NCBI RefSeq assembly: GCF_030704535.1
Contig: NC_081811.1
Location: 3,488,501 to 3,552,500, forward strand
DNA length: 64,000 bases
Source: Vitis vinifera
Taxonomy: Eukaryota; Streptophyta; Magnoliopsida; Vitales; Vitaceae
Direction of reading: 5' to 3'
Translations under genes and position numbers: made by a program
Notes under the pieces: model-generated
The model's input: only the letters and a program-made list of their open reading frames with translations
Database searches by the model: none
Told to the model about the DNA's origin: nothing
Part shown: piece by piece, positions 5,381-45,200 of the stretch
Layout: the number at the start of each line of letters is the position of its first letter
Numbering within the stretch: position 1 is the stretch's first letter

Positions 5381-9515
<4,135 letters not shown>

Positions 9516-10380
9516 GCCATGCAGTGGGCTCTGCATTGAATTTTTGTGTTGGAGTTGATTCCCTTGTAACTGGCATGATCCTTTTGAGGTTGACACAATA
9601 TATATATGTCATCATTTACAAGAAAACAGCAAATTTTCTTTCTTTAATTAGATGATCATTGATGTTCATAGTTCACATTATTCAATTGTGCTCACAAGCT
9701 TTTTTCAATTCATGGATTTTGTGTCAAGTCACCTACTTTCTCTCAGGTGCATGCTTTTTCTTCACTATAAAATTAGAAGGGTTTTTTTTTTTTTTCATTT
9801 AAGCTGTTAGGATATCTAGATAAGATGTGGCAAATGATTGACAATTTAAAAAAAGGAAAAAAAGAAGTGGGGGAATTCATTCAACTAATTCTTCTTTGCA
9901 CATGAAGTCAAATAAAACAATATGAGAACTCAATCTGCGTTTGGCACAATAAGTATGAAATCTCATTTATATCCAAACACAGCCAAGAAAAAGAAAGTTG
10001 ATACACCAAATTTATTGCATCTTACCCAGGATGGAAAGGCAATGGCAGAACTGAAAAGCATGGAGAGAAGGGATGAGAACGATGGTCCCAAATTCGATCC
10101 TGGACTGGGTTACTTTTATTTATCATTAGGATTTTTTAATGGTAGCCAAAAGTTTTGGGGTGATCAATAAAAAATAATATATATTCCATCATTCAGAATT
10201 TAGTGCAGAGAGATGTGATGGATGTGGACTGTTCCTTATCATTATGCATGGAATATTGAAAACTGGTTAACAGACAATGCACTGCTATGTTTTGAACATT
10301 TCGCCCTCTGATCGTCATCACTAAAAGACACCAAAACTGTGGACCATTCTCTCAACAATCAGGACACCCTTGTATTTTCA
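9516..10380. other. Spacer between copies 1 and 2, with an RFI2-like fragment
   Basis: 9516-9660 is the likely 3' UTR. 9950-10060 resembles the region around the exon 5 end and intron 5 of the RING gene (near 39980-40070), including the CTTACCCAGGA boundary. No independent gene seen. Confidence 0.5.
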
Positions 10381-10435
10381 CAAAATTTATGGGGATGTGT
10401 CTCGAATCTGGATACTCCTGCCAAAGCTATGCAAT
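10381..10435 (+). promoter_or_regulatory. Copy 2 core promoter region
   Basis: CAAAATTTATGGGGATGTGT at 10381-10400 matches the block before copies 1, 5 and 6. A weak TATA-like stretch (AGCTATGCAATATAAC) follows at 10425-10440, about 90-100 bp before the ATG at 10523. Confidence 0.45.
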
Positions 10436-10522
10436 ATAACAGTAATAATGAATGGACAACAAAAAGAGTTTATTGGTGTAAGTATTAGGGAAAGAATTCT
10501 GGGTGGGTGAGTGTGAGCGAGC

Positions 10523-14755
<4,233 letters not shown>

Positions 14756-15609
14756 CTCTGCTTTGAATAGTTGGAATAGTGTGGTTCCCTCTTACTGGCA
14801 TGTTGCTTATGAGGGGTGCCACAATATGGCAGTTGTTATTTCCAAGTACAGGCAATTTTTTTTTCTTCAATAAGGTTGTCTATTGACTCTATTGGTTTCT
14901 CATTAGAATTTTTAATCAATTGATCTCATAAGTTTTATTCTATTCAGCAATTTCACAGATAAGAAAACTGGCCATTTTCTGATCTAAATTTAATAGAATT
15001 TGGATAAACCTAAGTTCTAAAATGTTTAAACAAACTTGAATTAGCCAACCTGATCAAGGAGGAGATGGTAGGTATCAACCAGCTTCAGGGACTTGGTGTT
15101 GGTGCATCTGTAATCAAGCAACCTGTCTCAGTAAGAATGGGAAATTTTTAAACACATGGTTGTCAAACATGGTTCTGAAAAATGAAATGAAATAAGATGG
15201 ACTATTATCCCAGAATGTTACCCGGTTGAAGAAGAACACGGTTTGCAGCTTGTCTTGGGGTTTGTTTGGAGCTAAACAAACTGTGTGTAACTGGGATTTT
15301 TTCCTCAAGTTTTTGTGGCATATCCAGAAAACATTCACTAGAACTCATTTTTCATTTAGCACCCAAAAAAAGAAAAAAAAAAGAAAAAGAAAAAGAAGGA
15401 ATTTCATGCATGTCAAAACTCAACCAAGAAGAAAAAGATAGATTTTCCAAAATTCTTACAGCTTACGCATGACCAAAGAGAGAACAAAAGTGAAACTTTG
15501 ATATTGGGTGTTCACATGCTAGACTTCAATTGGATGGGATAACCTCTTTTTCTCATTACGTGTGGAATATTGACAAACCGTTTGATAGAGACTGCATGTT
15601 CTCTTGTCC
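14756..15609. other. Spacer between copies 2 and 3, with an RFI2-like fragment
   Basis: 15340-15520 resembles RING-gene intron 5 and the end of its exon 5 (39940-40230), including the TTTGATATTGG words. 15190-15300 is shared with the spacer after copy 3 (20012-20130). No gene of its own. Confidence 0.5.
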
Positions 15610-15619
15610 AATATATGGA
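15610..15619 (+). promoter_or_regulatory. TATA-like box of copy 3
   Basis: AATATATGGA lies 89 bp before the ATG at 15699. The same box with the same spacing occurs before copy 4 and copy 6, and an ATAAGAATAATAATGAATGG leader follows in copies 3 and 4. Confidence 0.5.
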
Positions 15620-15698
15620 GTATAAGAATAATAATGAATGGGCAGCACAAGAAGTTCATTGGTGTGAGGATAAGGAGAAGAATACTAGGTGTGTGAGC

Positions 15699-18600
15699 AT
15701 GGCGAAGAATAAACTCTGTTTTTTCTCTCTATTTCTTGTGCTAAATTTAGCAGTTACAGCCTTCAGCTCCCTCAAGTTTAGCAGAGATGACTTCCCACTA
15801 GACTTCATCTTTGGGTCTGGAACCTCTGCTTATCAGGTTTATTTACTTTTTCATTTTGTCTTTGGAATCACCTTTTGAATAAAGGAGTTATGATTGTGAA
15901 TGAGTTTTGTATCATTACATAAAAGGTTGAAGGAGCAGCATTCCAAGATGGGAGGACCCCTAGTATCTGGGATACCTTTACTCATGCTGGTAAGTTTCTA
16001 CTCACTATAGTTTTTATCACTTTTATTATCATGTTTGTGCTCAGACTCTTGCTTCTTTTACCAGGGGAACATCTACCCCATCGCCATCAGTGATGAACAA
16101 GGTTTCCTTTTTATAGGCCTTGTCATTGAGTTCTCTAGTAGAAGTATGATATTTCATAATAATTAGGTATAGGTGATACTGCTTTGGAAACTGATGGGTT
16201 GTGATATTAAGTATGTTACTAAACATGCTTTTTATTTGTGATGCTAATTATAAAAGAAAGTTTCAGAGTAATCACTTCTTTGATCTTTAGTAAATAAAAG
16301 ACTTATTTAATATAAGAAGAATTGCAGATCATGAAACTTGGTTCTGAAACCTTTTCTACCAAAGTATCTTGTCTCCAACTTTACTGAAAAAGTATTTTGA
16401 TTTTTGACTTCCAAAAAGTTGAGCAAAACATGAGTTTAGTAGCAGTTGCTGAGAGATAAATACAACTACTAGATATTTGATTTGTATGACTGATTGTCCA
16501 TCCCAAAATTTTCAGGGCAATCCCATGGAGCTACTGGAGACATAACTTCTGATCAGTATCACAAATACAAAGTCAGTTTCCCTTCTTTATGATATTTCTA
16601 TTGGAATAATCATATCGCATGTTCATCTTCCTAATTAGATCACCACTGAAATGACTGTTCGAAGGGGTGGATGTTGTAGGAGTATGCACTCTTGATGCTC
16701 CACTTGAGCCAATATGTGGCTGTTGAACAGCTGGTTAAAGAAAATTCAGACTTCTGCAATTGAACCATTTTTCTTGTGCAAATGATCATGAAACTGTGAA
16801 TATGAAATTCCTTTTCTAGGAACTTTCCTGATGACATTCTTGCACACCCCCTACATGTCCCAAATGCCTGTAAACTTGTTTGTTGTTTCCTCCATGTGCA
16901 TGTATTTCTTGCAGGATGATGTCAAACTCATGGTTGAGACAGGCCTAGAAGCCTACAGATTCTCCATTTCATGGTCTCGACTTATCCCAAGTAAGATCAC
17001 CATACTATCATTTCTGTTATGAGAACAAGAACTCGGCCACTTTTTGGTTCTGTCTCAGTCATGCTATTCTTATTGTTCTAACAGATGGAAGAGGACCTGT
17101 CAATCCAAAGGGTTTAGCTTATTACAACAACCTTATCAATGAACTTCTCAGCCATGGTTGAGTCAAATTTCTGTCATATATGTTTTTCGGTTATCATTCT
17201 GGAAGTACTTTTCTTGACTTTGATAGATAAACTAAAGTAATTTTATCAGTCAAAAGCAAGAGAAAGTCCTTCCACACTGCTATCTGAACAATGCTTTACA
17301 AGCTCACTTATTCCAATATTTCTCTCTCTGGATCTAACAGGAATCCAGCCACATGTTACTTTATTCCACAGCGATACACCACAGGCTCTTGAAGATGAGT
17401 ATGAGGGATGGATTAGTCGAAGGATTGTGTATGGTTCTCATCTCTCTTGGTCAAATTTCACATTTTATGCTTGGGCAACAAGCCCTCCACCAAGAACAAA
17501 ATAGGCCATAGATGAACAGAGTCTTTATGTGGATGCAGGAAAGACTTCAAGGAATATGCTGATGTATGCTTCAGAGAATTTGGTGATAGGGTTTTGTATT
17601 GGTCCACCATAAATGAGGGCAATATATTTGCTTTGGGTGGTTATGATATTGGAATCACGCCCCCTCAGCGATGCTCTCCCCCTTTCGGAAATTGTCCTAA
17701 AGGGAACTCCCCATCAGAGCCATACATTGCTGGACATCATATCTTGTTGGCACATGCATCAGTTACACAATTGTACAGGGAAAAGTATCAGGTATTAACT
17801 AAACTTTCCAAATCAGTCAATGAATGTATGCATCTTCTCTCAACCATATGGCATTCAGAAATGGTAATCTTGGTTCAGCATCCAGTTTGTTGAAACCTAT
17901 CTTCAGATAAAGTTTGAATCTCCACCTTCACTTTTTCTGTTTTGGAATTCACCACTCACATAAGAAACATCAAAAGAAATTTGATGGTTATTAAACTGAT
18001 ATGGTGTTGCAGGACATACAACAAGGTTTCATAGGGACGAATGTCTTTGCTTATTGGTTTGTTCCTCTAACAAACAAAACAGAAGATATCATTGCTACTC
18101 AAAGAGCCCATGATTTCTTTCTTGGTTGGTGAGTTATGAACCTACACTAGATGAACTGGTATCTACATATCTTGAATTTTCACCATTTCCTTTTGCTCCT
18201 ATCCACTAGGATGTTAAATACCAAATGGTCCAGAAACTATTAGTTGGTTCTAGTACCAACTTATTTTTTGCCCTGTAAAATGGCTACATATTATGTATGA
18301 GAGTCTATATGAGGCTTAGTTATCTTTTATGCCCATTTCCTATTGCAGGTTTGTTCATGTCTTAGTGTTTGGAGACTATCCTGACATAGTGAAGAAGAGG
18401 GCAGGCACAAGAATTCCATCCTTCACTGAAGACGAATCCAAACAGGTCAAGGGTTCATTTGACTTCATAGGGATAAACCATTACACCTCACTACACATCA
18501 AGAATAACCCCATGAAGCTGAATATGGATTACAGAGACTTTAATGCAGATGTGGCTGCGGACATGATAGGTATGTTGCTTTGGGTCTTTAACTAAACTTG

Positions 18601-19886
18601 GTATGAACTTGATTCTAGGGTTTCCTTGCAGTAGTCCCTGGACACAAGTTCATGTTTTAGACACTGACTTGAATGAATCAAAGTTCAGTGTAGCATGCTG
18701 AGTCAAGTCAGTCTCTGCTTATTCTTTAGCTAATAAAAAAAAAAAAATGGAACTGATGTATAGAATCATTGCATTGTGGCAGCTATAATAGATGATACAG
18801 CACCAGATCAGGTAAGAATTGAAAAATGATATTATTCAGTTGCTTTGTAACCAGTTTAAGTCAGTGTATTACTAACCAGCTTCTTTGATTCAGTTTCCTG
18901 TTCTGCCCTGGGGTTTGCAACAATTGCTGGAATATTTCAAGCAAGTTTATGGCAATCCTCCAATCTACATCCATGAAAATGGTCTCTCTCTCTCTCTCTC
19001 TGTATTTTTCCTTTAGAGAATAATGGTTCAAGTAGACCCCATGGTCCTGTCAACTATTGGAACATGATGTTGTCAACGGCCTTTATGGATATTCCTCAGT
19101 TGTTTGTTCGTCCCCATTCTTTGAGGTTTAGCCCACAGGGTAGAGTTGGCTGGGGGGGTTGAGAAAACATAAATTTAATTTTCTTTTATCATGTGTTATC
19201 ATCTAATTGACAAATCTTTCCATGGCATGTGGCCAGGTCAACAGACAAAACGCAACACAACATTGAATGACACAGGAAGGGTGAAATATTTGCAGGGCTA
19301 CATTGGGGCTTTGCTCAATGCAGTAAGGTATGTCTATTTCAATAACAACCTTGATACAGAGAGCTTAGAGAAGCTAGCACTTTTTCTTATGAAATGTAAG
19401 TTTATAGAAGGATCACAATTCAACATTTGATAGAGGCTCAATCTCAACAGTCTATTAGAGATTAGCTTGAACATCTTTTCCTTTTGAATCATTATGAATT
19501 CATTTCTAGTTCACTTGAATTACTACTGAATAAGAATTTATTTTAAGTTGTCATTCCACTACACCTTTTTTTTTTTCTTTCTAAATGGTCTCTTTTGATG
19601 TGGTTTTCTGTTGTCATTTTTCTTTTTAATCTTTGGCAGGAATGGATCAAATGCAAAAGGGTATTTCACATGGTCATTCTTAGATGTATTGGAGTTATTG
19701 GACGGCTATGGATCATGCTTTGGCCTGTACTATGTAGATTTGGATGACCCAGATTTGAAACGATATCCTAAGCTATCTGCACATTGGTACTCTAGCTTTT
19801 TGAAGGGAGAAAACGTCAGTTCAGATGGGGCCATTGGAATTGAGAAGAATAAAACTCCTGTTTCTAGTGCTCGATCAATTCAGTAG
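15699..19886 (+). CDS. BGLU11-like: GH1 beta-glucosidase, array copy 3 (13 exons, 512 aa)
   Basis: Exons: 15699-15836, 15926-15989, 16516-16571, 16915-16990, 17085-17156, 17341-17428, 17539-17791, 18013-18128, 18349-18569, 18783-18811, 18894-18981, 19237-19327, 19640-19886. Sum 1539 nt, no internal stop. I chose the ATG at 15699 because it aligns with the other copies; an in-frame ATG at 15570 lies upstream of the TATA-like box. The protein has a signal sequence ([18 protein letters not shown]), acid/base Glu191 in STINEG, nucleophile Glu399 in YIHENG, and the C-terminal [20 protein letters not shown] block. An unusual HSDTPQ stands where siblings have HSDLPQ or HIDLPQ. Predicted retaining beta-glucosidase of the secretory route; substrate unknown. 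Confidence 0.9.
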
Positions 19887-20452
19887 TCTGCTTTGAATAG
19901 TTGTACTGGTGTGGAGTATGGTTCCCTTTTACTGTCATGTTGCTTATAAGGGTAACAGATTATCAGCTGCTATTTCCATGCACAAGCACATTTTCTTTCT
20001 TTAATAAGCACATTAAGATGGACTATTATCCCAGAATGTTGCCTGGTTGAAGAACACACTTAGCAGCTTGCTGTGGGGTTACTGGAAAGAACTCATGTTT
20101 CAAACAAACTTTAAACAGCTAAATCATGAATGTAACTGAGATTTTTTTTTTTCTTTTCTAAAGGGAACTCATCAAGTTTTTGTGACATAACCAGAGAACA
20201 TTTACCATAACTTATTTTGCATTAAGCACCAAAAAAAATGTGGAATTTTCATGTATATCCAAACACAACCAAGAAGAAAACTGTAGACTCTCCAAAAGTA
20301 TTACAGCTTTCCCATGACCAAAGAGCAACAATAGAACTGAAGCCTGGTGGATATTCACTGGTTAAATTTCAATTGGATGAGGCGATGTCTTTCTGTCTTT
20401 ATGTATGGACTATTGACAAAACTTTTTGATAGAGACCGCATGTTGTCTTGCC
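19887..20452. other. Spacer between copies 3 and 4, with an RFI2-like fragment
   Basis: 20185-20330 resembles RING-gene intron 5 and exon 5 end (39945-40080). 20012-20130 is shared with the spacer after copy 2. Confidence 0.5.
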
Positions 20453-20462
20453 CAATATATGT
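20453..20462 (+). promoter_or_regulatory. TATA-like box of copy 4
   Basis: CAATATATGT lies 92 bp before the ATG of the pseudogene at 20545, same context as copy 3. Confidence 0.45.
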
Positions 20463-20544
20463 AATATAAGAATAATAATGAATGGGCTACAAAAGGAGTT
20501 TATTAGTGTAGAGATGAGGAAAAGAATACTAGGTGTGCGTGAGC

Positions 20545-20909
20545 ATGGCAAGGGATGGACCCCTTTTCTCTCTATTTCTTGTGCTAAATTTCATGGTTAC
20601 AGCCTTCAGCACCCTCAAGTTTAGCAGAGATGACTTCCCACCTGACTTCATTTTTGGGTCTGGCGCCTCTGCTTACCAAGTTTATTTTTCTTTTACTTGT
20701 ATTTGCATGAACATAAGGAGAAGAACTGATTGAAGAAAATAATTGAAAACTAAGAAGAGAGTTGGTGAATGATTTTTGTATTATCATTATTATTATTATT
20801 ATCATGTAAAAGGTTGAGGGAGCAGCATTCCAAGATGGAAGGACTCCTAGCATTTGGGACACATTTACTCATGCTGGTCAGGTTCTAGTGATGTTTTTTA
20901 TTTTCTTGC

Positions 20910-20940
<31 letters not shown>

Positions 20941-22790
20941 GTTTGAGCTCCTATTTCTTTCATAGCGGGAGTACCTATCCTACCATTCCCCACAATGAAC
21001 AAGTTTTTTCTAATGGTGGGAGTGAGTTTATACATTGTTTTAGCACCATTAAATCTTTTGAAGAGGTATTTCTTGGGAGCATTTTGTACTGCAAAATATT
21101 TCTCATGTAAAGGTTTTTTAATTTTTATAACTAAATACACAAACTCCTTTTAATCTTTAATAGTTTTAAGCATTTATCTGATATCTGATCTGAATGACTG
21201 AATTTTTCCAACCAAATTTCAGGGAATGTTCATGGAGATACTGGGGATATAGCATGTGATGAGTATCATAAATACAAGGTCAGTTCCTTTTTTTTGTGAT
21301 CTTTTTTGTTGGAATAATCATGTGGAATGTTAATCTTCCTGGTTAGATCACCTCTGGTATGACTAATATAAGAGGTGGATGGTATAGAAGTATTCAATCT
21401 TGAAGAGCCAATATGTGGCCTGTTAAATGTATAGAAACATCTGAGTTACTTCTACATCTGAACCATTTCCTTCCCTGACAGCATTTATTTTTCCATTCCA
21501 CTTTTTCCAAGTGCCTATAAATTTGTTTATTGTTCATGTCCCATTGCAGGAAGATGTCAAACTCATGGTGGACACAGGCCTAGATGCCTATAGATTCTCC
21601 ATTTCCTGGTCTCGAATTATCCCAGGTATGATCACTAAACTGTAACTCATATCAACAAAGTTAGTACCTTGCAATTTCTGATGCTATCTCTCATAGTTAT
21701 GTTGCTATTGTTCTTTCAGATGGAAGAGGACCTGTCAATCCCAAGGGTTTAGCTTACTACAACAACCTAATCAATGAACTTATTAATCATGGTTGAGAGC
21801 AAGTTTCTTTCAGAAATGAACATACTGTTTGATTGGCATCTTTTAGAACATTTTTCTTGCATTCTATAGCATAAAGCAAAGCAACTTTTTCCATCCAAAA
21901 TGAGAGAAAATGCTTCCATTTTCCATTAGAACTCTGCCTTTTCTTATTGATTTACCTTCATCCCTTGATCAGGCAGGAATCCAACCGCATGTTACATTAT
22001 TCCACATTGATCTACCACAGGTGCTTGAAGATGAGTATGGGGGCTGGGTTATTTGAAGGATTGTGTATAGTTCTTAGCCCTCTGTCTTTTAACTTATCCC
22101 CATATTAAGCTTGGGCTACATACCCTGCAACAGGCACAAAATAAGCAATGAAAGTTATCTTATGTGGATGCAGGAGAGACTTCAAAGAATATGCTGATGT
22201 TTGCTTTAGAGAGTTTGGCGATAGGGTTTTGTAAGGATAATAATAAATAGGAAGCACAAGACGCTTATTGGCTTAAAGAACAGGGAAAAAAGGTAAAGAA
22301 ATTCATGTGAAATGGATGGAATGTAAGGATAATAATAAATAGGAAACACAAGAAGCTTATTGGGGTAAAGAAAAGGTAAAAAAGAAGAAGGAAAAGAACA
22401 GTGTGTGAGAACCTCAGCTTATATTTCGGGTCTGATTCCTGTTGCATGTTTGTCGATGCCTTGGTGTTTGGAGACCACCCTGACATGGTGAAGAAGAGAG
22501 CCGGCACAAGAATCCCAGCCTTCACTAAACAGGAATCCAAACAAGTCAAGGGTATCTTTGACTTCATAGGCATAAACCATTACAACACAGTACCATCCAT
22601 CAAGAACAACCCTGAGAAGCTGAAAATAATGAAGATGTGGGCGTAGATACGATATGTATATTCCCTTTTTTCACCTAAACCTGGTTCTCAAGCACTTCAA
22701 CTTAACTATCTCACCTTTTACGAACTGACCTGGATGAGCCGAGGTTCAATGTAGAAAAATGAGTCATTGCAGTCAGCTTAGTGTATTCCT
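20545..22790 (+). pseudogene. GH1 beta-glucosidase, array copy 4, rearranged and truncated
   Basis: Exons 1-6 are recognisable: 20545-20679, 20813-20876, 21223-21278, 21550-21625, 21720-21791, 21977-22064. Exon 6 has TGA at 22054-22056 in place of the CGA of LSRRIV. Exon 7 starts at 22174 but breaks off after the codons for FGDRVL, near 22232. There the sequence jumps to GH1 5'-leader DNA, present twice (about 22225-22275 and 22320-22400), then to the end of intron 8 and exon 9 (about 22448-22650). The exon 9 acceptor reads GCAT instead of GCAG, and exon 9 has an internal deletion near 22628. Intron 9 homology fades by about 22790. The rest of exon 7 and exons 8 and 10-13 are missing, so the nucleophile and acid/base codons are both absent. 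Confidence 0.85.
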
Positions 22791-23450
22791 CTTCAAATTC
22801 AATGAACTGACCATAGAAATTCTGTATTTCTCTCCTACCTCCCTTAATTTCCCTCTCTATAAAGTGGGGATCATTATTAACTGGTTGCTTAGTGTGAGGA
22901 AACAGAATTCAGATTGGCAGATTGATATGCTATATTTCAGGGTTTTCTGTAATTTTAGTAATAGAATTAAAATAGGAAAGATAATACAAAGCTTGAGGGA
23001 GTGTAAGTAGGGGTGACAAGGTTTAATATGGTTGACCAACACGACTTAGTCCAATTTTTTGTAGCCTGAGGAGTAGAATTAAGGCAAAGACATGAACAAC
23101 AGCCAAAATGAAGATACAAGCAACACATAGAGAGAGATGCCTAGAGGGAGAAACACTAAGTCATATCAATGTAACACCTGCAACCAATGCTGGTTTGGCA
23201 ATAAGAAATACAGAAGAACAAAACTCTTCTCCACCTCAGTTCTCTACAACTTAAAAGAACACACAAGATTATTCAATTCAATACATTTGCATTATTATTA
23301 TTTTTTATTTTAATTCCATTACTAAAATTACAGAAAAACCCTAAAAAATTACCAGACATTCTGATTCTCACATTAGGCAACCAAACTAGGATCCCCACTT
23401 TCTAGAACGAGAAAAAAAGGAAGTAGAAGAGGAATACAAACTTTGTAGGG
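22791..23450. other. Unrecognised spacer
   Basis: AT-rich, no confident gene. 23060-23450 could be 3' UTR of the putative minus-strand mini-gene that follows. Confidence 0.3.
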
Positions 23451-23979
23451 TCAGTCGATGTCCATGTTACCACCTTGGCCTTGGTCTTGGCTCCGCTGAT
23501 TCGCAAACTGAAAACCAACCCTGCTCACGGATTCTTGAGTCAATGCATGACATAAGACTACGTTTGATTCTCAGAAAATTTAAAGTCAGAAACAGAATCT
23601 TGATTTAGGAAAATACAAAAAGTCTAATATCACTTTCAAGAACTAATATTCTTTCGAAGTAACAAGAAACTATGTGATGTCATGTTTCAAAAGGCATCCC
23701 ACCTCAAAAACAATACACGAAACAGAAATAAATGACATAAACTATGAACTCCTGGTAATGTTCTTGAATTATTCCAAGAAATAAAGCCTGAATGACCCTC
23801 AAGAATCTAAAGATTTTAGACGCAAGGGCATTCTTTCTTGGAAATTTTAAGACGGTACAATGAGTAGAGAAGTAGAGCTTACTCAGAGAGAATTCTGGTG
23901 ATAAGACAATGAGAGCTTGGCATACTCGACAGAAGAAGGAATTGGCTCCAAGATTTTGATGGAATTCAAGAAGAGACAT
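23451..23979 (-). CDS. Possible two-exon small protein or gene remnant (67 aa)
   Basis: Exon 1 is 23979-23883 (97 nt, starts MSLLEFHQNLGANSFF). Exon 2 is 23557-23451 (107 nt, ends GQGGNMDID then TGA). The intron 23882-23558 has GT and AG ends, and the two exons join in frame (204 nt). The second exon has the polar, Gln-rich, acidic-ended look of a real C-terminus (SVSRVGFQFANQRSQDQ). A TTTAAAAT box lies upstream near 24115 on -. I do not recognise the family. It may be the end piece of a larger gene or a captured fragment. Confidence 0.3.
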
Positions 23980-24929
23980 TTCAAGCTTCAACTTCCAAAG
24001 AAAGTCGAAAAGCTATGGAATTCAAGGTTGAAGAGGAGAGATCGCAGGTAAATATGGTGGAAAGAGAATGGAGAGTTGGAATTGAAGAAAGTGTAAAGAG
24101 TAGTTGAATGGGATTTTAAAGCAAGGAGGTCTCTTGGAGCTTTATTTTTTCCTTGTCGCCTATTTGTTTTTAAACTAAATTTAATGATTGAAGTATAACC
24201 ATGCTCTATTCCTATAGCTTGGCTTCAAAATGGCCTTTCAACCAAATAAAAAATTCTATGTACTTATCTTTTGAAACTTTTGTTCAAAATGATTTCTTTC
24301 TGTTTTATTATCTCTTAATTTTTTTTATAAATAATGTTAGAAATCGAAGTTTCAAATTTTTGAAACTACGATTTCTAAATTTACACTAAAACCATATTTT
24401 AAAATGGAAACTTCTAAATAATTTAAAAAATAAAATATGAAGAGGATTACTTTGACCAATAGTTTGCAAATAGGCCTAGAATATAGATTTTTTATTTTTA
24501 GTTGAGGGCCTAATTTGACATAAAATTCCTATTCCTAAGCATATAGAACGTTGATACTTCTACTTAATTAAAGATTATGAATTATCATATTTCTTGAATT
24601 CCATTATATTGATTAGGTGATGTAAGAGCCATGCACATTTACGAATGAAGCCTTGTTGGCTAAGACCATTTCTAGTCCTTGCTCACCTATTTCTTAATTG
24701 TAGAATTATTTCAAAACTAATTAATTTGTATAAACATTTCCCACAATCTCTCTATTAAATTATTTATAATTTAAAATAAAAAATCAACTTAAAAAAACAA
24801 ATGCATGTTTCAGAATATTTTCCAAAACACTTATCTTAGGATATTGTGGCTCACATGACCATTTCAATATCTCTCTATAGGTTTAGTGATGTTGATTAGA
24901 CAAGTTGTCCTATTACAAGAAGGAGCACA

Positions 24930-25376
24930 ACGGGTTATTATGTTTTTCTTGGAGCAAATTGTATCTCTTGGTGTGCAAAGAAACAATCAACTATTGCTTG
25001 CTCGAGCATTGAGGTCAAGAATTGCTTTTTGCCCTTCTCCACAATTGAATTGACTTGGATTACTTAGTTTTTATGAGATATTGGTGTGTCCCTCTCTAAA
25101 CCACTATAATTATTTTGTAACAATATTAGCGCTTTTTACATGCCTGTTAATTCTATGTTTCATGCTTGTTCTAAAGATATTGAACTTGATTATCATTTTA
25201 CACGAGAAAGTAACTATAGGCACTCTTGTCACTCCTTATGTTTTCACACATTCTCAATTTACTGTTATTTTTATCAAATCTTTGTTAAAAGACGTCTTCA
25301 CCATGTTTTGGGATAAGTTAGGTGTCTATATACATTTTTACTCTAGTTTGAGGAGGCATGTTAAAGGAAATATTCA
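24930..25376 (+). pseudogene. Copia-type retrotransposon RNase H relic
   Basis: With frameshifts, + reads motifs of the Copia pol end: VFLGANCISWCAKKQSTIARSSIE at about 24940-25010, FSTIELTW at about 25036-25060, then IELDYHFTREKV-like words near 25183-25210, FIKSLLKDVF at 25270-25300 and LRRHVKG at 25348-25370. The order matches the family RNase H region to the pol stop. Stops and shifts show it is dead. LTRs were not found. Confidence 0.7.
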
Positions 25377-26860
25377 ATAAGGTACATTGAATCAAACACA
25401 TAAAGGATAGGAAGCACATAAAGACACTCTCATCAATATTTTCATAAATTCAGAGAAATCAAAGAAATCGAATATTAATTATATTTTATTTTATTTGATT
25501 TTAATATATTTTCTAATATGTTAAAAATATTATTTATTTATTTCCTTCTACAACTCATCTATATTTTTATATAAATTTCCAAAGGAAGTAGTAGAAAACA
25601 TAGCTTTTATTACCAAAGTATCAAACTTTACACCATCAACCTAATAATTTCAAAACAAAATTTTACCAATTGAACTATAAAATGATTAGACAAAATTTAC
25701 GTTAAGCTACATTGATTACGGAGATGGTAAGTATCAGCCAGCTTGAGAGGCTTACGGTTTATACAAATATTCAATGCAACAGGTAATCATATTCCTAAAT
25801 TTTAGAGACTACAATGAGAAATAACAAGACCTCTCAGTCGAGTGGGGTTGTAGGAATAGACCTTCAGGAGAGTGTCTTCATCCTGAAAGAGTTCAATTCC
25901 GCAACAAGCCCATTCATGTAGACTAGATTTCTTTCATTTCTTGGAAATGGGTTTACAATGATATGTGGTAAAGTCAGTGAAATACATCAACATTTATTGC
26001 TAGAGGAGAAACTTAAGTTATGTTTGGTTACAAAGAATTTGAAGAAAAATGCGGGGGAAAGAAAATAAAGAAAAAAAGTAAAAAAAAATAAAAATAAAGA
26101 AAAATAAAATAAAATTTTAAAATTAATAAATTAATTTTTTATCCTTTTTTTTTTTTCATTTATTTGATTCTTTTATATGATGGTTAAATAGTTTTAAAAT
26201 ACATCATTTTTTTTTAATAATTTTAATTTTATTTGACTTTCTCTCATTTTTTTTATTATATTAAAATCAAATATAAAAAAATTATTATTATTATTATTAT
26301 TATTTTCTTTCCTCGTGCTTACAGGACCCAACATAGTTAGAGATTTTGCCCAAATAAAAAGCTTCTAAATGTGAAAAAAAAACCAAGACAAGCCAGCAGC
26401 TGCAGTGGTCAGTTGCAAAGGATGAAAACCAACAGTTCTTTCTCAACTGATTTTGTATGGTTTTCAAGCCCCATCACAGCTTCCCTTTCTCCTCACCTAA
26501 AACCCTCTTTTCTCTCCTCTTCCCCAACCTTGTTCTGCTTGTCTCTCTCTCTCTCTGCTACTGTCCACAAAGACGGCCAAATTTCTTTTTCCAGTTGGAC
26601 CCCGCATCTTATCAGCTTCTGTGTGTATTTTATGGCACTAAAAGGATGCTCAAGAACAGCCAACTTGATGGGCATTTAGCCAATAAAGAGAGGTCCACCA
26701 ACTCATGGACTGGACCTCATGCTCCAACATTATCATTTTCTACTGAATTTTGACAAAACTGTTTGATAGGGACTTCTCGTGGACTGGACCTCGCAGTTGG
26801 CAAGGGAAGCCAAAAATCAAAATCACTTTTCACAAGAATTGGGACAGACATGTATTTTCA
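25377..26860. other. AT-rich spacer upstream of copy 5
   Basis: Low-complexity A/T runs at 26040-26305, including (ATT)n at 26281-26305. 26748-26790 resembles the upstream flank of copies 3, 4 and 6 (GACAAAACTGTTTGATAGGGAC). Short open frames at 26371-26753 look accidental. Confidence 0.4.
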
Positions 26861-26909
26861 CAAAATTTATGGGGATGTGTCCAGAAGTGAAATAGATGGA
26901 ATGTAAGGA
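26861..26909 (+). promoter_or_regulatory. Displaced core promoter of copy 5
   Basis: CAAAATTTATGGGGATGTGT (26861-26880), then CCAGAAG and TAGATGGAATGTAAGG. This parallels the copy 6 promoter at 33705-33760, but here it lies about 2.1 kb before the ATG because of the insertion at about 26902-28915. Confidence 0.55.
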
Positions 26910-28915
26910 CAAAAAGCCCATTTCAAGGGTATGATGGTCATTTCACACCTCAAGCCCAAAAGCTTAAGGTGGAAACGACACAAACATTCGTATTGTAATT
27001 GAAAATTTACCAATTATCAAATTCTTATTCAAAGTAGTATGACAAAATTCTAAAATCTCTAAGCATCAACTTAAAAAAAAAAACTAATACATCAACCAAA
27101 ATGTTATTGTCTAAATAACTCCAAAATCAAAATAATTCAAATGATAATTAAGTTTTAACATCTAAACAATGAAAAAAATAAAGAGAGTTTAAATAAATGT
27201 TCTAATAAAGCCGAATTTCCCTCCTAACGATCACTCCTCGCCCGAAGTGAGGTTACCGAAAAGATTATCAACAACTGAGGATGAACTCAAAGCCTAATAA
27301 GGAACATTAATACAGTTTTTTGGATCAAACATTTTCAATCATGTTTGTAAATAGGAGATATAACATATATTTATTTTCATAAAAACTTTTGAGTTTAAAA
27401 TACTAATACATTTAAATTATTCAACAAAACTTTTTCATATCCATTTCAAAACAATTTCTCATAAAAACCAAATCAAATGCATTCAAAATATCTTTACTTT
27501 GGTTATTGTATGACAAATGGTGCTCAATTATGTAAGACTTCACAATTGAGTAACTAGTTTCAAATTTGTTCCATTTAAGGTGAGCAAAACCAAATGTTAA
27601 TAATTATAACCCGTTGACTAGAACCATAAGGTCAATTATTATAACTCATTGACTAGGGTCATATAATATCAACTATTATAACTCGTTGATTATGGTCGAA
27701 AATGTCAACAATTATAATCCATTGACTAGGGTCATATAATCCGGAGTCAAAACACTTTATTTCATTAATTCAAACTTACAAAACAAAATATCATATCTCC
27801 TCAAATTTTCGCTTTTCATAAATAAACAAAGAAAATTCTCAAAAATGTTTTCCATACAAAACACATATTTGATCCATGCGAAAAGATAAAAATAATATTT
27901 TTACACATTTCAAAATATAATATAAAAAGAAAATTATTTTCTTTATATAAAAATCCGTATTAATTTCTCTTATCTTGAAAAAAACACTCAAAATCTTGAA
28001 GTATTTAACTCTAAATAATTTCCTTCTCACCTAACATAATATCATACACAAGATGAATTATTGATTATTTATCTAAATATATAAATTTGATAATCTTAAA
28101 AATATTTTATTTAGTATTAAGGATCCTAATTAATTTTTCATATTAATATTATTACCATCCAATATTATTTTCAACTTCTTAAACAATAATTTATTTCTCT
28201 TTTCTAATTTATCTAAATTAAATATTTTAAGAATATTTATTTGAATTAAACTATTATTACTATTATTTAAATCTCCTAACGAAAGTTAACAAATATCCCA
28301 TGCAATTTTTTATTTTATTTTCCAACAACTTCACACCAACTCCATTCATTATTATTGTTTCTTTTATTATTATTATTATTATTTTCAGTACCCAACAACA
28401 CCTTAACCGCCAAATCCTTCCTACGCATCTTTCATCATTTTTTTTTTCTTCTTTAAAATCAAAACTTTTAACCTTCATACTCACAAATTTTATGTAATTT
28501 TCACATCCGAAACTATATAATTTTTTTAATCTAAATATATTCATTTAAGTAATCAAAATTTATCGATTTCCATTAATAAATCAAACTATGTTTATAAATT
28601 TTTAATCTTTTTGACCTAGAAATTAATTAAACGAATTCTAATCAAAATTAAAATATTCCAAAGAATATATAAAATATTCAAAACTAATTAATGAATGTAA
28701 AATATTAATTTAAGGATTAAAAATTTTACTTAAAAAATTGATCTTCAAATCCTAAATCTCCAAATCTTCAACCTTATACTCTCTGAATAGAAAAGATAGG
28801 AAAAATCTAATTTATATCTAGGGTTTTAAATATGAAAAAGACATTTTTACCCTTATTAAATTACTTTAATTAATTAATAATTTCGAAATTACGATTTTAG
28901 GTTCGGGGCATTACA
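26902..28915 (-). mobile_element. Solo-LTR-like insertion in the copy 5 leader
   Basis: AT-rich block of about 2.0 kb between sequences that are adjacent in the other copies. Ends read TGTAAGGAC (26902 on) and GGGGCATTACA (to 28915), giving TGTAA/TTACA termini. On - it starts TGTAATGCCCC, like many plant LTRs. No pol coding and no clear 5-bp target duplication (TGGAA against TCAAC), so the exact edges are uncertain. It contains a 4-unit tandem repeat at 27598-27742. Confidence 0.5.
27598..27742. repeat. Tandem repeat, about 36-38 bp unit, four units
   Basis: Units begin AATTATAACCCGTTGACTAG and AATTATTATAACTCATTGAC, then two further variants, each with GTTGACTAGGGTCATA-like cores. They lie inside the LTR-like insertion. 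Confidence 0.75.
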
Positions 28916-28983
28916 TCAACAAATGGGCGTGATAAGAAGCTTATTGATGTAATGATAAGGAAAAGAACAGTAGGTGTTTGAGC

Positions 28984-32902
<3,919 letters not shown>

Positions 32903-33704
32903 GCTCTGCTTTGAATAGTCATCTATTGGTGCCTTCCCTTTCAACTGGCATGTTGACAACTTATCAACTCTTATTATCAGAACATTTTCTTTCTTAATAA
33001 GTATATTCAGTGATTTCTCATAGCTTGTCACTCAATTCAGAAAATATTATAGGTAAGTAAACTGGCTAGCCTTGGGTGTCAACCTAATATTTTTTTCAGA
33101 ACAAAATCTGAATCCAACTTTAGCTATCTTGATTCAGAGTATGTTATGTATAAGCCATCTTCAGGGGCTTACCGCCTATACATCCTTCATCAGCCTCCCG
33201 ATTCCAACAAAAATTCGCCACTGAACTGTAAAGTAATCTTGGTTGCAAGAAGTAACATCATGTTCTCAAAATTTCAGACAGATATGAGCAATAACAGTTA
33301 ATTGGGACTGCCCAACTTGTTTCAGCAAAAGATAGAAGCTTTAAACAAGATTCTCAAAATAAGTACATGTCTTCCAGAGGGAAAATTACAGCAACGGTCC
33401 AAATTAGCAGTAAAGAGAATCCACAATGAACAACTATTTGAATAGAAATCTCCTAGTCCAAGTCACCAAAGACGGCCGAATCAGTATACAACAAAGTTGA
33501 CAATATTGGCATGCTAGAGTTCAATTTGATCAAGCAACCTCCATCATTATGTTTTCAATGTCGACAAAAATGTGTGATGGAGACCGCCCATTCTCTAGAG
33601 GGAGGAAAGTTCCACCCAGCACAACTTTCGAGGATGCTGAAAATCAATACCCAATAATAATAATAAAAAAAGAAAAAAAGAAAAACCAGGACAGAAGTAT
33701 TTCC
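32903..33704. other. Spacer between copies 5 and 6, with RFI2 intron DNA
   Basis: 33285-33450 is clearly similar to 40590-40790 in the RING gene intron 3 (for example GGGACTGCCCAA and ATAGAAGCTTTAAACAAGAT, both present in each). 33030-33280 resembles the flank after copy 6 (38690-38890). Confidence 0.6.
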
Positions 33705-33752
33705 ACAAAATTTACGGGGATATGTCCAGAAGATTATTGTGAAAATATATGG
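33705..33752 (+). promoter_or_regulatory. Core promoter of copy 6
   Basis: CAAAATTTACGGGGATATGT (33705-33724) and TATA-like AAATATATGG (33743-33752), 95 bp before the ATG. This is the only promoter here that has both the ATTTATGGGG block and a good TATA box. Confidence 0.5.
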
Positions 33753-33837
33753 AATGTAAGGATAGTAATAAATGGGAAACATGAGGAGTTAATTGATGGA
33801 AAGACAAGGGAAAGAAGAATACAAAAAGTGTGTGAGC

Positions 33838-38221
<4,384 letters not shown>

Positions 38222-39249
38222 TAGGTTCTGTTTTGAATAGTTATGTCTTGGTGTGTTTCTCTTTCTGCTGCCTTATATTGGCAACACAATTTATCAGTTA
38301 TTTACTTGAACACAATTTCCTTTGATGACTGTTGGGATTTGAACCTGAACCCTGCCTAGAGATTTCAAGGTCCATTAGGACATTTGAACTATTTTTCCCT
38401 CCTTTTTTTGATTTTTTTTCTCCGAATTTCCATTTCACTCATCTTACCATAACCATCTACCATAACCTAATACTTCAACACATGCATATCTCAAATGAAT
38501 TTGACTTTGAACGGCTTAAAGTAGAATGCAACAGGTCAAACCCTTGAAAGGTATAATGCATCAAATTTAGTGCAATACTGGAACAAAATTTTCAACCTAA
38601 TTGAATAGGTTAGCATGTGGGTAACACAATCCATCAGTTACTATCAACAAGCAATTGTTATTCTTAACAATGTTATCTACTAAGTTCACAAGTTGTATTC
38701 AATTCAGAAAAATTTATGGATAGGCAATCTGGCCTTCCATGAGTTTCACCCTAACATTACTTCAGAACAAAACTTGATAGAAATTGAATAATACTGAATG
38801 CTAAAAAGTGATTACACAAAATCCACTTTAGCTGTCTTGATAAGCAAGATGGTGAAAACCTTAGATGCAAGTATGGTCATGTTCTCAAATTCCACGACCA
38901 GCAAAACCCAATGCATTTGGTTGAAAATTCAGAAAAAAGCTTGTCCCAACTGTGAACCATCCATTTCAAGTTATCCCATATAAACATATTTTATAAAGAG
39001 GGATTAAATGTCATTGCATGGCCACAAGATTGCCACAAAAGTGTTTTGCCAGCTTACCTTAGCCAAATTCCAGGGCCATATGACTGGACAAGTTTGCCGA
39101 AATTTACAGGAACAGACAATTGTTCACCAATTGTCAAATATATTTTTTTGGTTCCGGAATTGAGAAGTTCAGATGCAATTCAAATGAGAAGTTTTCAAAA
39201 AGCTGGGATGAATTGACTGACAAACTTTCTCAACCAACCTGGTGGGCAT
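38222..39249. other. Convergent intergenic region
   Basis: 3' flanks of copy 6 (+) and of the RING gene (-). No further gene seen. Parts (38690-38890) are shared with the spacer after copy 5. Confidence 0.5.
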
Positions 39250-42200
39250 CTAAGACCAGTGCCTCCAAAAGCTGCTAGACCTGCTGCCAGAATCAGAGCC
39301 ACCGGTAGCCTGATGAAACGATCCCCAGCCTGAGTCCCATGCATGAAAATGATTCAGTGATGGGTTTTCTGCCTCATGTATGTTTCGGATTGATGCTCCT
39401 GAAGGAGGAAAGATGTAGAAACCAGCACTGTGATCAGATTGTGAGGCTGCTGGCACTACAGGAGGCAAGGCCCTTGGACCATTGAATCTCCTGACACCAG
39501 GAACAATAGAAGTGGGCATGCCTGGAGAATTAGGAGGTGGATGTTGATGAGGTAGGGCATGGGAGATATGGATTCTTTCATAGGTTCGAAGAACACTGTT
39601 TCCTGGATGATTAGGGACAATTGAGGAGACAAATGCACTCCCAGCCCTATGACCAGACCTATGAAAAGTACAGGCATGCATATTAATATCTAATTGCTCT
39701 AATAAAGCACAACCTTGTTGATTTCTCAAACATGTTATTTGAACATGTGTTCTTCTAAAATGAATCAAAACGGGCTATGCTATATCAGAATAATGTATAG
39801 TTGAATGAAAAGAACATAGTTCACAGCTTTTTTCGAAGATTGCAATTTTTAATGGCTAAACAAAGTATGCATGTAAGTGGGTTTTCTTGAAAATTCATTC
39901 AACTAGTTTTTGCAATCCCTGTTCAATGAATCTTGCAACCAAAAAACATTTACAACTCATTTTGCATTTAACACAAAAAGATGAAACATCATGTACATCC
40001 CAACACCAAGAAAAAAAAAAGATAGATATTCCGAACTGATTAGAGCTTACCCAGGACCGAAGAGCAATGGATGCACAAAAGATCCAGACCTTGTCATAGC
40101 ATCAGATTCACCTCTCATAGATCTCAGTGTTGCAGGTAGAGCTGGAGCCTGTTCAGCACCGTTAATATGGCTGCTGGTTGGTGAGAAGGGAGGGGAATGA
40201 TGACCCCAACTTTGATATTGGATATCAATAGCAGGAAAAGCATGGGAAGAAAAGATCTCACTGTGTGCAGAGAGGCTATTCCAGTGATGATTGAAGTTCA
40301 GATCATCAACACTTTCAGAGGAGTTTGAGTGGGTGGGTGGAATGGGTCCAAAGTAAGCAACATATGAATGAGCTGCAGATGATGCAGCAGCATGTTCAGA
40401 TAATATGGCATGGTGTCCCTGTAAGTCATGATCTGCATGGAAAAAAACTCCTTTCTTGTATATTTAATCACCAAGGCACGACTGAATTTTGATCAGGAAA
40501 CCAATAGAAAAGAAAACACTTACGTGTAGTTGATGGAGATTCCACTTCCCTGAAAGATTTGAGGCATCAAAAGGTCAGAAACAGCAACGAGCAATAACAT
40601 TTATGGGACTGCCCAATTTGTTTCAGCAAAACATAGAAGCTTTAAACAAGATTCCCAAAAGAAGTCAATGTCTCTCAGTTATTTTCAGAATCCATAAAGG
40701 AAGTTGCAGCAGTAATATCAAAAGGGAAAATATTCCACTTATAATTTAAGAGAACCCCCATGAGCAATCATTTCAAAAAGAATCTGCATTGATACTCACC
40801 GAAGTTATACAGATCCATATGCTATCCAACACAAAAAAGCGTTTTTTCTTTTTCTTTTTCTTTTTCTTTTTTTCCTTTTCCTTTTGAGGAGTGGCATGTT
40901 AAAAAGGAAAGAAATAAAAATAAAAAAAATAAAAAAATGTGAGGTGTGATACAAGAATGGAATATATTGCACTTAACGCAGGGGTGAGACTTAGGAACTC
41001 CATAAGCATGAAGCGATTAGAAATGCCAGAAGAGCAACCAAAATAAAATTGAAAGCATTATGAAGCAGGCAGCAAACCAGCAAGGAAGAGAAGGTCAAAT
41101 AAAGACATAAAATTGGGTCCAGTAGAGATTTGCAAATTTAATAAATTTCCAACATGATCATGCAATCCTGGTACTACACAAGTAGTTCTACTAAATTAGT
41201 TATCAATTTACTAAATCTTGAACATTGAAGAAACAAAGAATAAATAGTAGAAGGATGACCATATCTAGAGACACAATAATGCTCTAGATTTTGAATTGTT
41301 AAAGTGCATACTCATGTAAACAAATAAAGCTTGCAAACTCCCACCAGAAGTGATGTTATTCGATGTGAAACAGGAGCACTTGCAAATCAACATAGAAAAT
41401 GTAGGAGAAAGTAACTCAAATGCAAGTCCATCTGTGCTTACTCAAAAGATGAACGAACTTGTGTAAATCCACTAAATGGACACCATTGCACTCTAAATGG
41501 CTGTAAAAAAGATGAATGACACAAGTGTTATCCATGAGGTAAAATCCAGAGTGTCTGTCAATAAACACAAATAGCTTCAATAGATACATAAAATATATGT
41601 ACAGAAAAAGTACAGAAAAATAAATGTACAATTGCTTCAATAGAAACATAAAATGGTAGAAAGATTTATACTCACTAAAGGACTGCTAATGGTCAATTTT
41701 GATATAGCTTAACAATAAATTTAGTTTTTTCAAATGATAGGATAGCACGAGCTTGATTTAAAAGAAATCTAAAGCACATGCATTCTAGACAATGTACTTC
41801 TAATTGTATCTCAAAGCAAGATATGATCATCATTCACAAAAGGTGGAATTATTAAACAACCCCTCATATTTTTTAGGGAAAAATTGATGCCCCAAGTCAA
41901 ATTTAGGAAAAATGTAAATTTAATCATACTATCCCCAAATGCAAGGGAGTGCTGAAGCAGGTTTTGAATTGGCAATGAAAATTGAAAGTGACCTTCAGCA
42001 CTGATGAGGGATTGGATACCAGCTATTGCTACTTGCGAATGATGGTTTTCCGGATGGCAGTTTCTCAAATTATTTTCAAAACTCTATAGTTCTTCCTCTG
42101 AGGAGTGAACAATCAAAGGTTCAGGCCCCTTCCCATTGCGCCAAATAAAACCTATGTGAAGATTGCCTCTAGATGTGAGAATTGCCTCATTTAGGGTTCT

Positions 42201-45200
42201 ATTACATGTTAATTTTAGCATATCATCACTTGTTTAATAGGGGGCTTCTTCAGTAAGCGTAAATTACAGGTCATCTTTTGGCACCTAGACTTTTTTTTTT
42301 CTTTTGATAGGCAAATAAGAGTATATAAATATATATAGAAAAAAGTGTCAAACTAATGTGGTGAACACTGTATACTAGAAGTATACAAATGAGGAACAAA
42401 AACCAGCCACCATAACTACAACCCTACTTTAAGACTTGGAGCACAACCAATCTATAAAATCTAACAAAGACCGTGGAACTCTCTAACCATCACCAAGAAG
42501 AAACCCTTGAGACCAAAAATATAGATTAGTAATTAGGGAATCCTTAAGAGCTTGAATATTGCATTGGTCCCCTTCAAAGGTTCTTTGGTTTTGTTCCTTC
42601 CAAATTGTCCACAAAAGGCAAAGAGGGGTTGTTCTCCAAACCTTCCTTCTCTTCTTGCCCATAAAGTTATCATGCCAACCTATTAACAAATCCTTAACAA
42701 GATGCCAAAAAAAGAGAAGAGAAAGTGCTATAACTTTCTAGCTATTCCGCAATGGATGAGAAGATGGTCTACCGATTCATCTGCATCTTTGCACATACAA
42801 CAAAAACCTGCCAAAACCCATCCTCTCCTCTTGAGTTGGTCTATAGTTAGGATCTGTCCCCAAGTCGCTTTCCATGCAAAAAAAAAAACCATTTTGGTAG
42901 ATGCCCAAGATCCCCATAGTATCTTTGGGGGGAAAGTCACTTCACCCTCTACTTCCAATGCAACAAAGAAAGACCACACAGAGAATACCCCACTCTTGCT
43001 AGCCCTCCAAATCACTTTATCCTCCCCATCTCTAATTCTCCCAAACTCATCAAGTTTTCGAATAAAATTCTGGACAGCATCCATCTCCCAATCATGAAAA
43101 CTTCTTGAGAAGCAAGGGTTCTAAGTGACCATCCCTCCTTCTACCTCCCGAACATCTTCCACCCATGCCTCCTTAGTAGCTGCCAGGGTGAATAATGAAG
43201 GAAAAGAGTCCTTTAAAGGTATATCATCACATCACATGTCATGCCAAAATTTGACTCTTCTCCCGTTGCCAACCTCAAATCTTATTTTATTTTGGCCTTA
43301 AAACTTCACCATCCTTTTTTGATTGACTTCCACAAGCCTACTCCATAACTCTCTCCCCTCTTGAGAGCACCAACTCCTAGGTCTTTTACAAACTTTCCCA
43401 ATATAAGTTTTCTCCAAAGCATATCCTTTTCAAGGTGAATCTCCAACATCATTTACCCAAAAGAGCTATATTAATAGTGGACAAATCCTTAATACCAAGA
43501 CTCCCTATTTTTCTATCTTTGCAAATCGTTGACCAATTCACTAGATGAGGTTTTTTCTCCAAAGCCCCTCCTCTCCAAAGGAAGTCCCTTTGGATTTTTT
43601 CTAATATTTTAGCCACCGACTTAGGAATAACGAAAAAGAACAAGAAGCAAATTGGTAGGCTGCTCAAAGTACTAATTCAACAAAGTGATTCCTCCTCCTA
43701 TTGGAAGGCACCTAGACCTTTTTTTAATACTGAAAATTTGAAAATCATTATTTCTCCCATGTATCAATATCTGAAACCCTTTATTGCATAAGGGAGAACT
43801 GCAGAAGTCATCATTGACATTAACATGGATAATGTTCCAATTTTTGTCTGCATCATTATGCAGATGTCAATTGTAAGGGAATGCCATTTCTGAATTCATT
43901 ATGTCACCATACTGATTTGCATAAACAGACTATTTCAAAGGTTCCTCTTAACAGGGATGGAATGTACTTCTAGACAAACAGTTAAGATTGGATTAAAACG
44001 GAAAACTTAATTAGTAACTGCCTTTTACCATTTCAGAATAATTGAAATCATATGTCTCTTCATCAGGAGTCCAGTCATCCATGCTAAACTCAGGAAATGA
44101 ACGAGCAGAGCCATTTGCAAATAACCACCGACCTCTCTCAATCTTTCGGCAGTTGGGGCATTGCATTGCCCCTTTCATATTGAATGCAGAACCAATGCAA
44201 TCTGTATAATACATAACAATAAGAGAACTAAGTTTATCATTAAAAATCAATGACCACAACCTTTACATGATTAGTTATATTTTACAAAACAGTAAAACAT
44301 ATGAATGCATTCTTTTAGGTGGAATATGTCATTTTTTTATAGGTCTTTTAGGTGGACTATGTTATTGATGAAGTGAGATAAAAAAACATCAATATCCTAA
44401 AAAGAAACCAACACAGTCAACATAGTTTATCATGTGATGCCATATCATATAAATTTTAAGATAGAAAAAAAAAACCTGTCTTAAATATGTGAAGGGATAA
44501 ACACTGGCACAGCTAAACATCTATTTGAGTCTATAATCATATATGAACATCTGTGCAAGTGTATATTCATCATATGTAAGATCATACTGTTTGTGATCAC
44601 TTCATATAACAGGCCATTTGGCACACTAAACCACAAATTTTTTATGACCGGTTGCAGAAATAAACCATGCTTAATACTAGAAAGAAGCCATCATAACTTT
44701 TGAACTACAAATATACGAAAAGCAGCTTCATCATTTAACTCTTACGCTCAATAATCACCCATTTTGTATCACACTTAAACCACAAATTTTTTACATGACT
44801 GGTTGCAGAAACAAAGCATGCTTAATACCAGAAAACAACCATCATAACTTTTGAATTACAAGTATATGAAAAGCAACTTTATTATTTACTTTGAAGGAGT
44901 CATCTCTTGGAACTCTAATGGTAGTCACCCAATAGCAACTACAAAGATATTTGCATCTACTTTAATGCTTATTTTAAATATTCAAGAGAATAATCTAATT
45001 AACTCAAGTGAAACTTTAATGTAGGAGACAAAATTCTCAGAGTGTAAAATATTGGGAGTGCAGAAGTCTTTGCCTTAAATTTCCTTTCTATAAACCATAA
45101 TCTAAGCCATTACTAGAACATGAGAATTTGCTCCTAAATATTCTCCACAAAGGGGCACATGTCATCCTTATCCAGTAGCTCCACAACTGTCATTCCTATT

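Follow-up and report, generated by a model that had tools for sequence, protein, structure and literature searches.

Fragments of a convergent RING gene in the spacers of a tandem GH1 array of Vitis vinifera

In a window of 64,000 nucleotides of Vitis vinifera contig NC_081811.1, the whole stretch of DNA analyzed here, six copies of a GH1 beta-glucosidase gene stand in a head-to-tail series on the plus strand, and every internal spacer of the series holds at least one block collinear with the flank between the last copy and its convergent neighbor, a RING gene (Table 1). Sequence from the body of the RING gene was recovered from four of the five spacers, with spacer 4 holding intergenic DNA only, and all of the blocks have the strand and order seen beside copy 6. 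These pieces of the neighbor were most likely copied along with the GH1 genes during formation of the array. We consider it probable that an illegitimate tandem duplication broken in RING intron 3 was followed by unequal exchange and by separate shrinkage of the spacers.

Table 1. Coordinates (window positions) of the GH1 copies, the RING gene and the blocks shared between the spacers and the RING flank.
Feature	Position	Strand	Description
GH1 copy 1	5381..9515	+	start approximate; stop codon ends at 9515
GH1 copy 2	10523..14755	+	start approximate; in-frame stops TGA 12268 and TAG 13128, both within conserved exons
GH1 copy 3	15699..19886	+	start approximate
GH1 copy 4	20545..22666	+	truncated, with in-frame stop
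GH1 copy 5	28984..32902	+	start approximate
GH1 copy 6	33840..38221	+	start approximate; convergent with RING gene
RING gene, intact	39250..52464	-	six exons, 407 aa; right of GH1 copy 6
RING gene exons	52290-52464, 44029-44201, 41442-41500, 40524-40549, 40051-40432, 39250-39658	-	open frame, 407 codons
RING gene parts	intron 5 39659-40050; exon 5 40051-40432; intron 3 40550-41441	-	from the gene model
Spacer 1 RING fragment	9874..10104	-	9874-10045 matches 39892-40070 (intron 5 and edge of exon 5), 122/166
Spacer 1 weaker exon 5 piece	10061-10104	-	matches 40179-40222
Spacer 2 intergenic block	14891..15069	.	matches GH1-RING intergenic DNA 38654-38853; 0/100 shuffles as good
Spacer 2 RING fragment	15144..15480	-	15144-15302 matches 39721-39888; two pieces in 15324-15480 match 39939-40064; intron 5 to edge of exon 5
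Spacer 3 RING fragment	19968..20328	-	19968-20182 matches 39733-39912; 20189-20328 matches 39937-40067; intron 5 to edge of exon 5
Spacer 4 intergenic block	25511..25728	.	homologous to 38655-38853
Spacer 5 intergenic block	32956..33131	.	matches 38626-38777, plus a short piece, 38821-38839, not significant alone
Spacer 5 RING fragment	33266..33471	-	intron 3: 33266-33372 matches 40567-40673, 93/105; weak extension matches 40718-40804
GH1 upstream sequence	15515..15604	+	common to 20362-20447 and 33505-33596; starts shortly after the RING-derived stretch

The array copies are 68-81% identical to one another. The Pfam profile Glyco_hydro_1 matched one exon of copy 2 only (E 2.6e-11), and copies 1, 2, 3, 5 and 6 retain the TxNEG and YIHENG motifs, the acid/base and nucleophile motifs of GH1. 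Judged from its reading frame, copy 2 is likely a pseudogene, because two in-frame stops interrupt conserved exons. Elsewhere in the genome, many GH1 genes lie on contig C13, several of them close together as in the array, and the sequence outside the array that best matches the exon of copy 2, with 59% protein identity, is on contig C14. Extra DNA (22670-25510 and 26940-28910) comes after the truncated copy 4 and interrupts the upstream region of copy 5; it is AT-rich from 24 kb onward, includes inverted repeats after copy 4 (22935-22979/23301-23345) and probably represents insertions. A leftward continuation of the array was considered and rejected: the adjoining 20 kb on the left side showed neither a GH1 copy nor a RING exon (blastn, E 1e-4 or better), and this flank matched the window only at 42.3, 53.7-54.4 and 62.6 kb.

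The exons of the RING gene were placed by eye at GT-AG sites, and the resulting six-exon, convergent open frame confirmed the claim of the first-pass annotation that the sole complete RING gene lies right of copy 6. Exon 1 gave a partial match to zf-RING_11 (E 4.1e-5, below Pfam's cut-off), and the second half of the RING can be read in exon 2, with the Cys pattern extending across exons 1 and 2. The name RFI2-type comes from the first-pass annotation and is a putative assignment. An RFI2-like RING paralogue was found at C14:1907534-1917011, where exons 1, 2, 5 and 6 were matched in the same order with 52-73% protein identity by piece; unlike the RING gene of the window, it is not near any of the 34 places that a GH1 protein query matched in the genome. 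The only other related RING gene found was a short match of 34 aa on C5. RING intron 2 contains a LINE-type zf-RVT match (42731-43120, minus strand), and RING intron 1 harbors one member of an inverted pair (2741-3001/45748-46005, 92% identical over 261 bases) that is likely a mobile element.

The first-pass annotation had assigned stretches after copies 1, 2, 3 and 5 to the exon 5/intron 5 region or to intron 3 of the RING gene, and this assignment agrees with the six-exon gene model. Alignment of the spacers to the RING side recovered the blocks collinearly, in order and on the same strand, and their scores stood above both shuffles and controls. The best scores of spacers 1, 2, 3 and 5 against the 3' part of the RING gene were 68, 47, 73 and 134, compared to shuffle maxima of 39, 31, 28 and 33 (30 shuffles each), and the same spacers scored at most 32 against both strands of seven control regions, some of which overlap each other and three of which lie within RING intron 1. 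The fragments of spacers 1-3 span the border of RING exon 5 and intron 5; in the alignment, the GT of the intron 5 splice donor is kept in spacers 1 and 2 and lost in spacer 3. The weaker exon 5 piece of spacer 1 was equalled by 2 of 300 shuffles. The weak extension in spacer 5 (33373-33471) was equalled by 2 of 2000 shuffles and, across the window, by 8 of 1193 positions, of which one overlaps this spacer; in a global version of the test, 27 of 1000 shuffles and 5 of 650 positions did as well.

None of the five spacers yielded RING exon 6, and the part of the RING gene upstream of intron 3 (41442-52464) had no match in them (best E 0.021). The region upstream of copy 1 yielded no RING body sequence above shuffles, nor did spacer 4, where 156 of 300 shuffles were as good; against the RING side, scores of 40 or more were absent from both spacer 4 and the sequence preceding copy 1. 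Scans of the window returned no Rfam match at gathering thresholds and no tRNA.

Intergenic DNA from between GH1 copy 6 and the RING gene is retained in spacers 2, 4 and 5, and spacer 1 had no significant match to it, with 25 of 100 shuffles scoring equally well. Under the scoring used for the control regions, spacer 4 was unremarkable (score 35, highest control 39). With looser scoring, its alignment of 25511-25728 to 38655-38853 reached 79, the best of 100 shuffles being 72, and the short stretch 25636-25728 reached 71, the best of 100 shuffles being 45. Under the same looser scoring spacer 4 resembled spacer 2 (79 against 50) and spacer 5 (70 against 40), whereas spacers 1 and 3 did not resemble it in this way. 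Spacers 2, 4 and 5 also share sequence past the equivalent of 38853 that is absent or altered in the RING flank. The duplicated unit proposed earlier, a GH1 gene plus the 3' part of its convergent neighbor, is supported by the collinear flank block in each spacer, and has to be enlarged by the intergenic DNA, which the first-pass annotation overlooked.

A GH1 tree of 387 aligned codons, with copy 4 left out, was rooted on three outgroup genes of the family located on C14, C17 and C10; the best topology was ((1,(2,3)),(5,6)). Support for copies 2 and 3 was 100 with all positions, 96 with positions 1 and 2, and 97 with protein, and for copies 5 and 6 the corresponding values were 75, 71 and 48; copies 2 and 3 were sisters in DNA trees with support of 96-100. 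Neither a rooting with copy 1 basal (AU p 0.057) nor one with copy 5 and then copy 6 at the base (AU p 0.18) was rejected. Copy 4 was placed with copies 5 and 6 in an unrooted DNA tree (100) and with copies 2 and 3 in a rooted coding tree (54); by windowed identity, its upstream part is like copy 3 and part of its leader is like copies 5 and 6, a pattern read from the identities. For its last exon, copy 6 is grouped with copy 3, and the AU p for copies 5 and 6 as sisters was 0.038 on this exon and 0.136 once the 3' UTR was added, making the mosaic signal of copy 6 a weak one. The apparent mosaicism of copies 4 and 6 gives signs, not proof, of exchange between copies.

These relations bear on the direction of growth. 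The first-pass annotation had concluded that the array grew from its right-hand end, by repeated duplication of the rightmost GH1 gene with the 3' part of the RING gene, each fragment being taken independently. Such a history would account for the most similar fragment (85%) lying in spacer 5, beside the last copy, for the RING segment of that spacer differing from that in spacers 1-3, and for fragment 1 being nearer to the RING gene (184/265) than to fragments 2 (108/182) and 3 (117/191). It is nevertheless quite unlikely and largely refuted by the tree, which omits copy 4 and rejects the rightward ladder (AU p 0.00086). Like copies 2 and 3, whose relation they mirror, spacers 2 and 3 pair: they are nearer to each other (166/210) than to the RING gene (129/197 for spacer 2 and 144/221 for spacer 3). 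Furthermore, the unit that follows appears to start from one common upstream point in spacers 2, 3 and 5. Nor does the place of the intact gene imply growth from the right, because it will stay at that edge after any tandem duplication with its right break inside the RING gene, no matter where later copies arise. The apparently common upstream point also speaks against two separate duplications, both broken in the RING gene, that would have produced a left block of copies 1-3 and a right block of copies 4-6. The separation of copies 1-3 from copies 5 and 6 in the best rooted tree suits this proposal, as does the presence of intron 5/exon 5 in spacers 1-3 and of intron 3 in spacer 5, but with spacers 2, 4 and 5 sharing sequence not seen in the RING flank we regard it as unlikely.

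Another reading takes the shared stretches for a dispersed repeat or transposon that is also present in the RING introns. Low-complexity runs occur in the spacers (among the matches listed) and the window contains the LINE-type zf-RVT remnant, both of which would be in keeping with a repeat. We searched the genome (495.6 Mb, 21 contigs) with a tool that skips very common words, using 39250-40790, 20014-20450 and 32960-33640 as queries; 3, 3 and 2 places were returned, respectively, all of them at this locus and the queries themselves included. Short pieces of about 72% identity escape these searches; spacers 2 and 3 were absent from the results of the RING query, as was the RING gene from those of the spacer 3 query. 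A GH1 protein query returned 34 places in the same genome, indicating that the search does list families. Within this limited sensitivity, the matches of the three queries were confined to the array and its neighbor, and the spacer matches traverse an exon-intron border and run on in order through intergenic DNA, so that a dispersed repeat, which the first-pass annotation had named as refuting the unit model, is not supported and is very unlikely. As for a function of the fragments, GH1 transcripts entering the spacers would contain antisense sequence of the RING pre-mRNA, and the RING gene could be acted on by small RNAs derived from the array. We hold this to be extremely improbable; if true, the passenger fragments would have a regulatory role on the RING gene.

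Under the duplication that we favor, broken in RING intron 3, the duplicated unit would run from a single GH1 gene through the intergenic DNA into the convergent RING gene, taking in the 3' part of the latter up to intron 3, and the spacer fragments would be the right-hand ends of this unit after its tandem duplication. A single first, illegitimate event may have joined RING intron 3 to a point upstream of GH1. The break would lie between 40673, or perhaps 40804, and 41442, and only the right edge would have kept a full RING gene. Later copies would have arisen by unequal exchange between GH1 copies within the array, with the RING-containing spacer as passenger DNA, and the spacers would then have been eroded by deletions that removed the last RING exon from all five. 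The absence of exon 6 is read as loss because the C14 paralogue matches this exon (52% identity).

We infer the first junction from eroded sequence. The common upstream sequence begins about 35 bases past the RING part in spacers 2 and 3, and in spacer 5 it begins 34 bases on if the weak extension is counted and otherwise about 130; the match of 15515-15604 to 33510-33596 had an E of 0.004 among the matches listed. Although the junction bases are eroded, the common start seen for spacers 2, 3 and 5 suggests one old junction that was later trimmed by different deletions. Against a single duplication of this kind, the RING body sequence of spacer 5 (intron 3) and that of spacers 1-3 (intron 5/exon 5) do not overlap; spacer 5 is tied to spacer 2 by the intergenic DNA. 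The closeness of fragment 1 to the RING gene does not favor one common ancestor of the fragments, and a slow-changing RING gene could explain it.

The array represents an ordinary mode of plant gene-cluster evolution with a neat duplication footprint. The kind of event proposed here, illegitimate joining and then exchange between copies, has precedent in plants: the P1-wr genes of maize at the p1 locus likewise form a head-to-tail array, with both illegitimate joining and homologous exchange in its history, and the chimeric genes at its edges are a further likeness to the GH1 array (PMC2686159). The P1-wr repeats are nearly perfect, whereas the GH1 copies are far less alike, and the P1-wr chimeras are between paralogues, whereas the passenger of the GH1 array comes from an unrelated neighboring gene (PMC2686159). 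A literature search found no description of the GH1 array among the titles listed, which is no proof that it is unpublished. The passenger fragments serve as an internal record of the duplicated unit, of the side of the original break and of the relation of later copies, and the present case highlights that the position of an intact neighbor must not be taken as the direction of array growth. Right of the RING gene, the window also contains a direct repeat of about 950 bases (59597-60534/61137-62067) with 68% identity, which is possibly another tandem pair.
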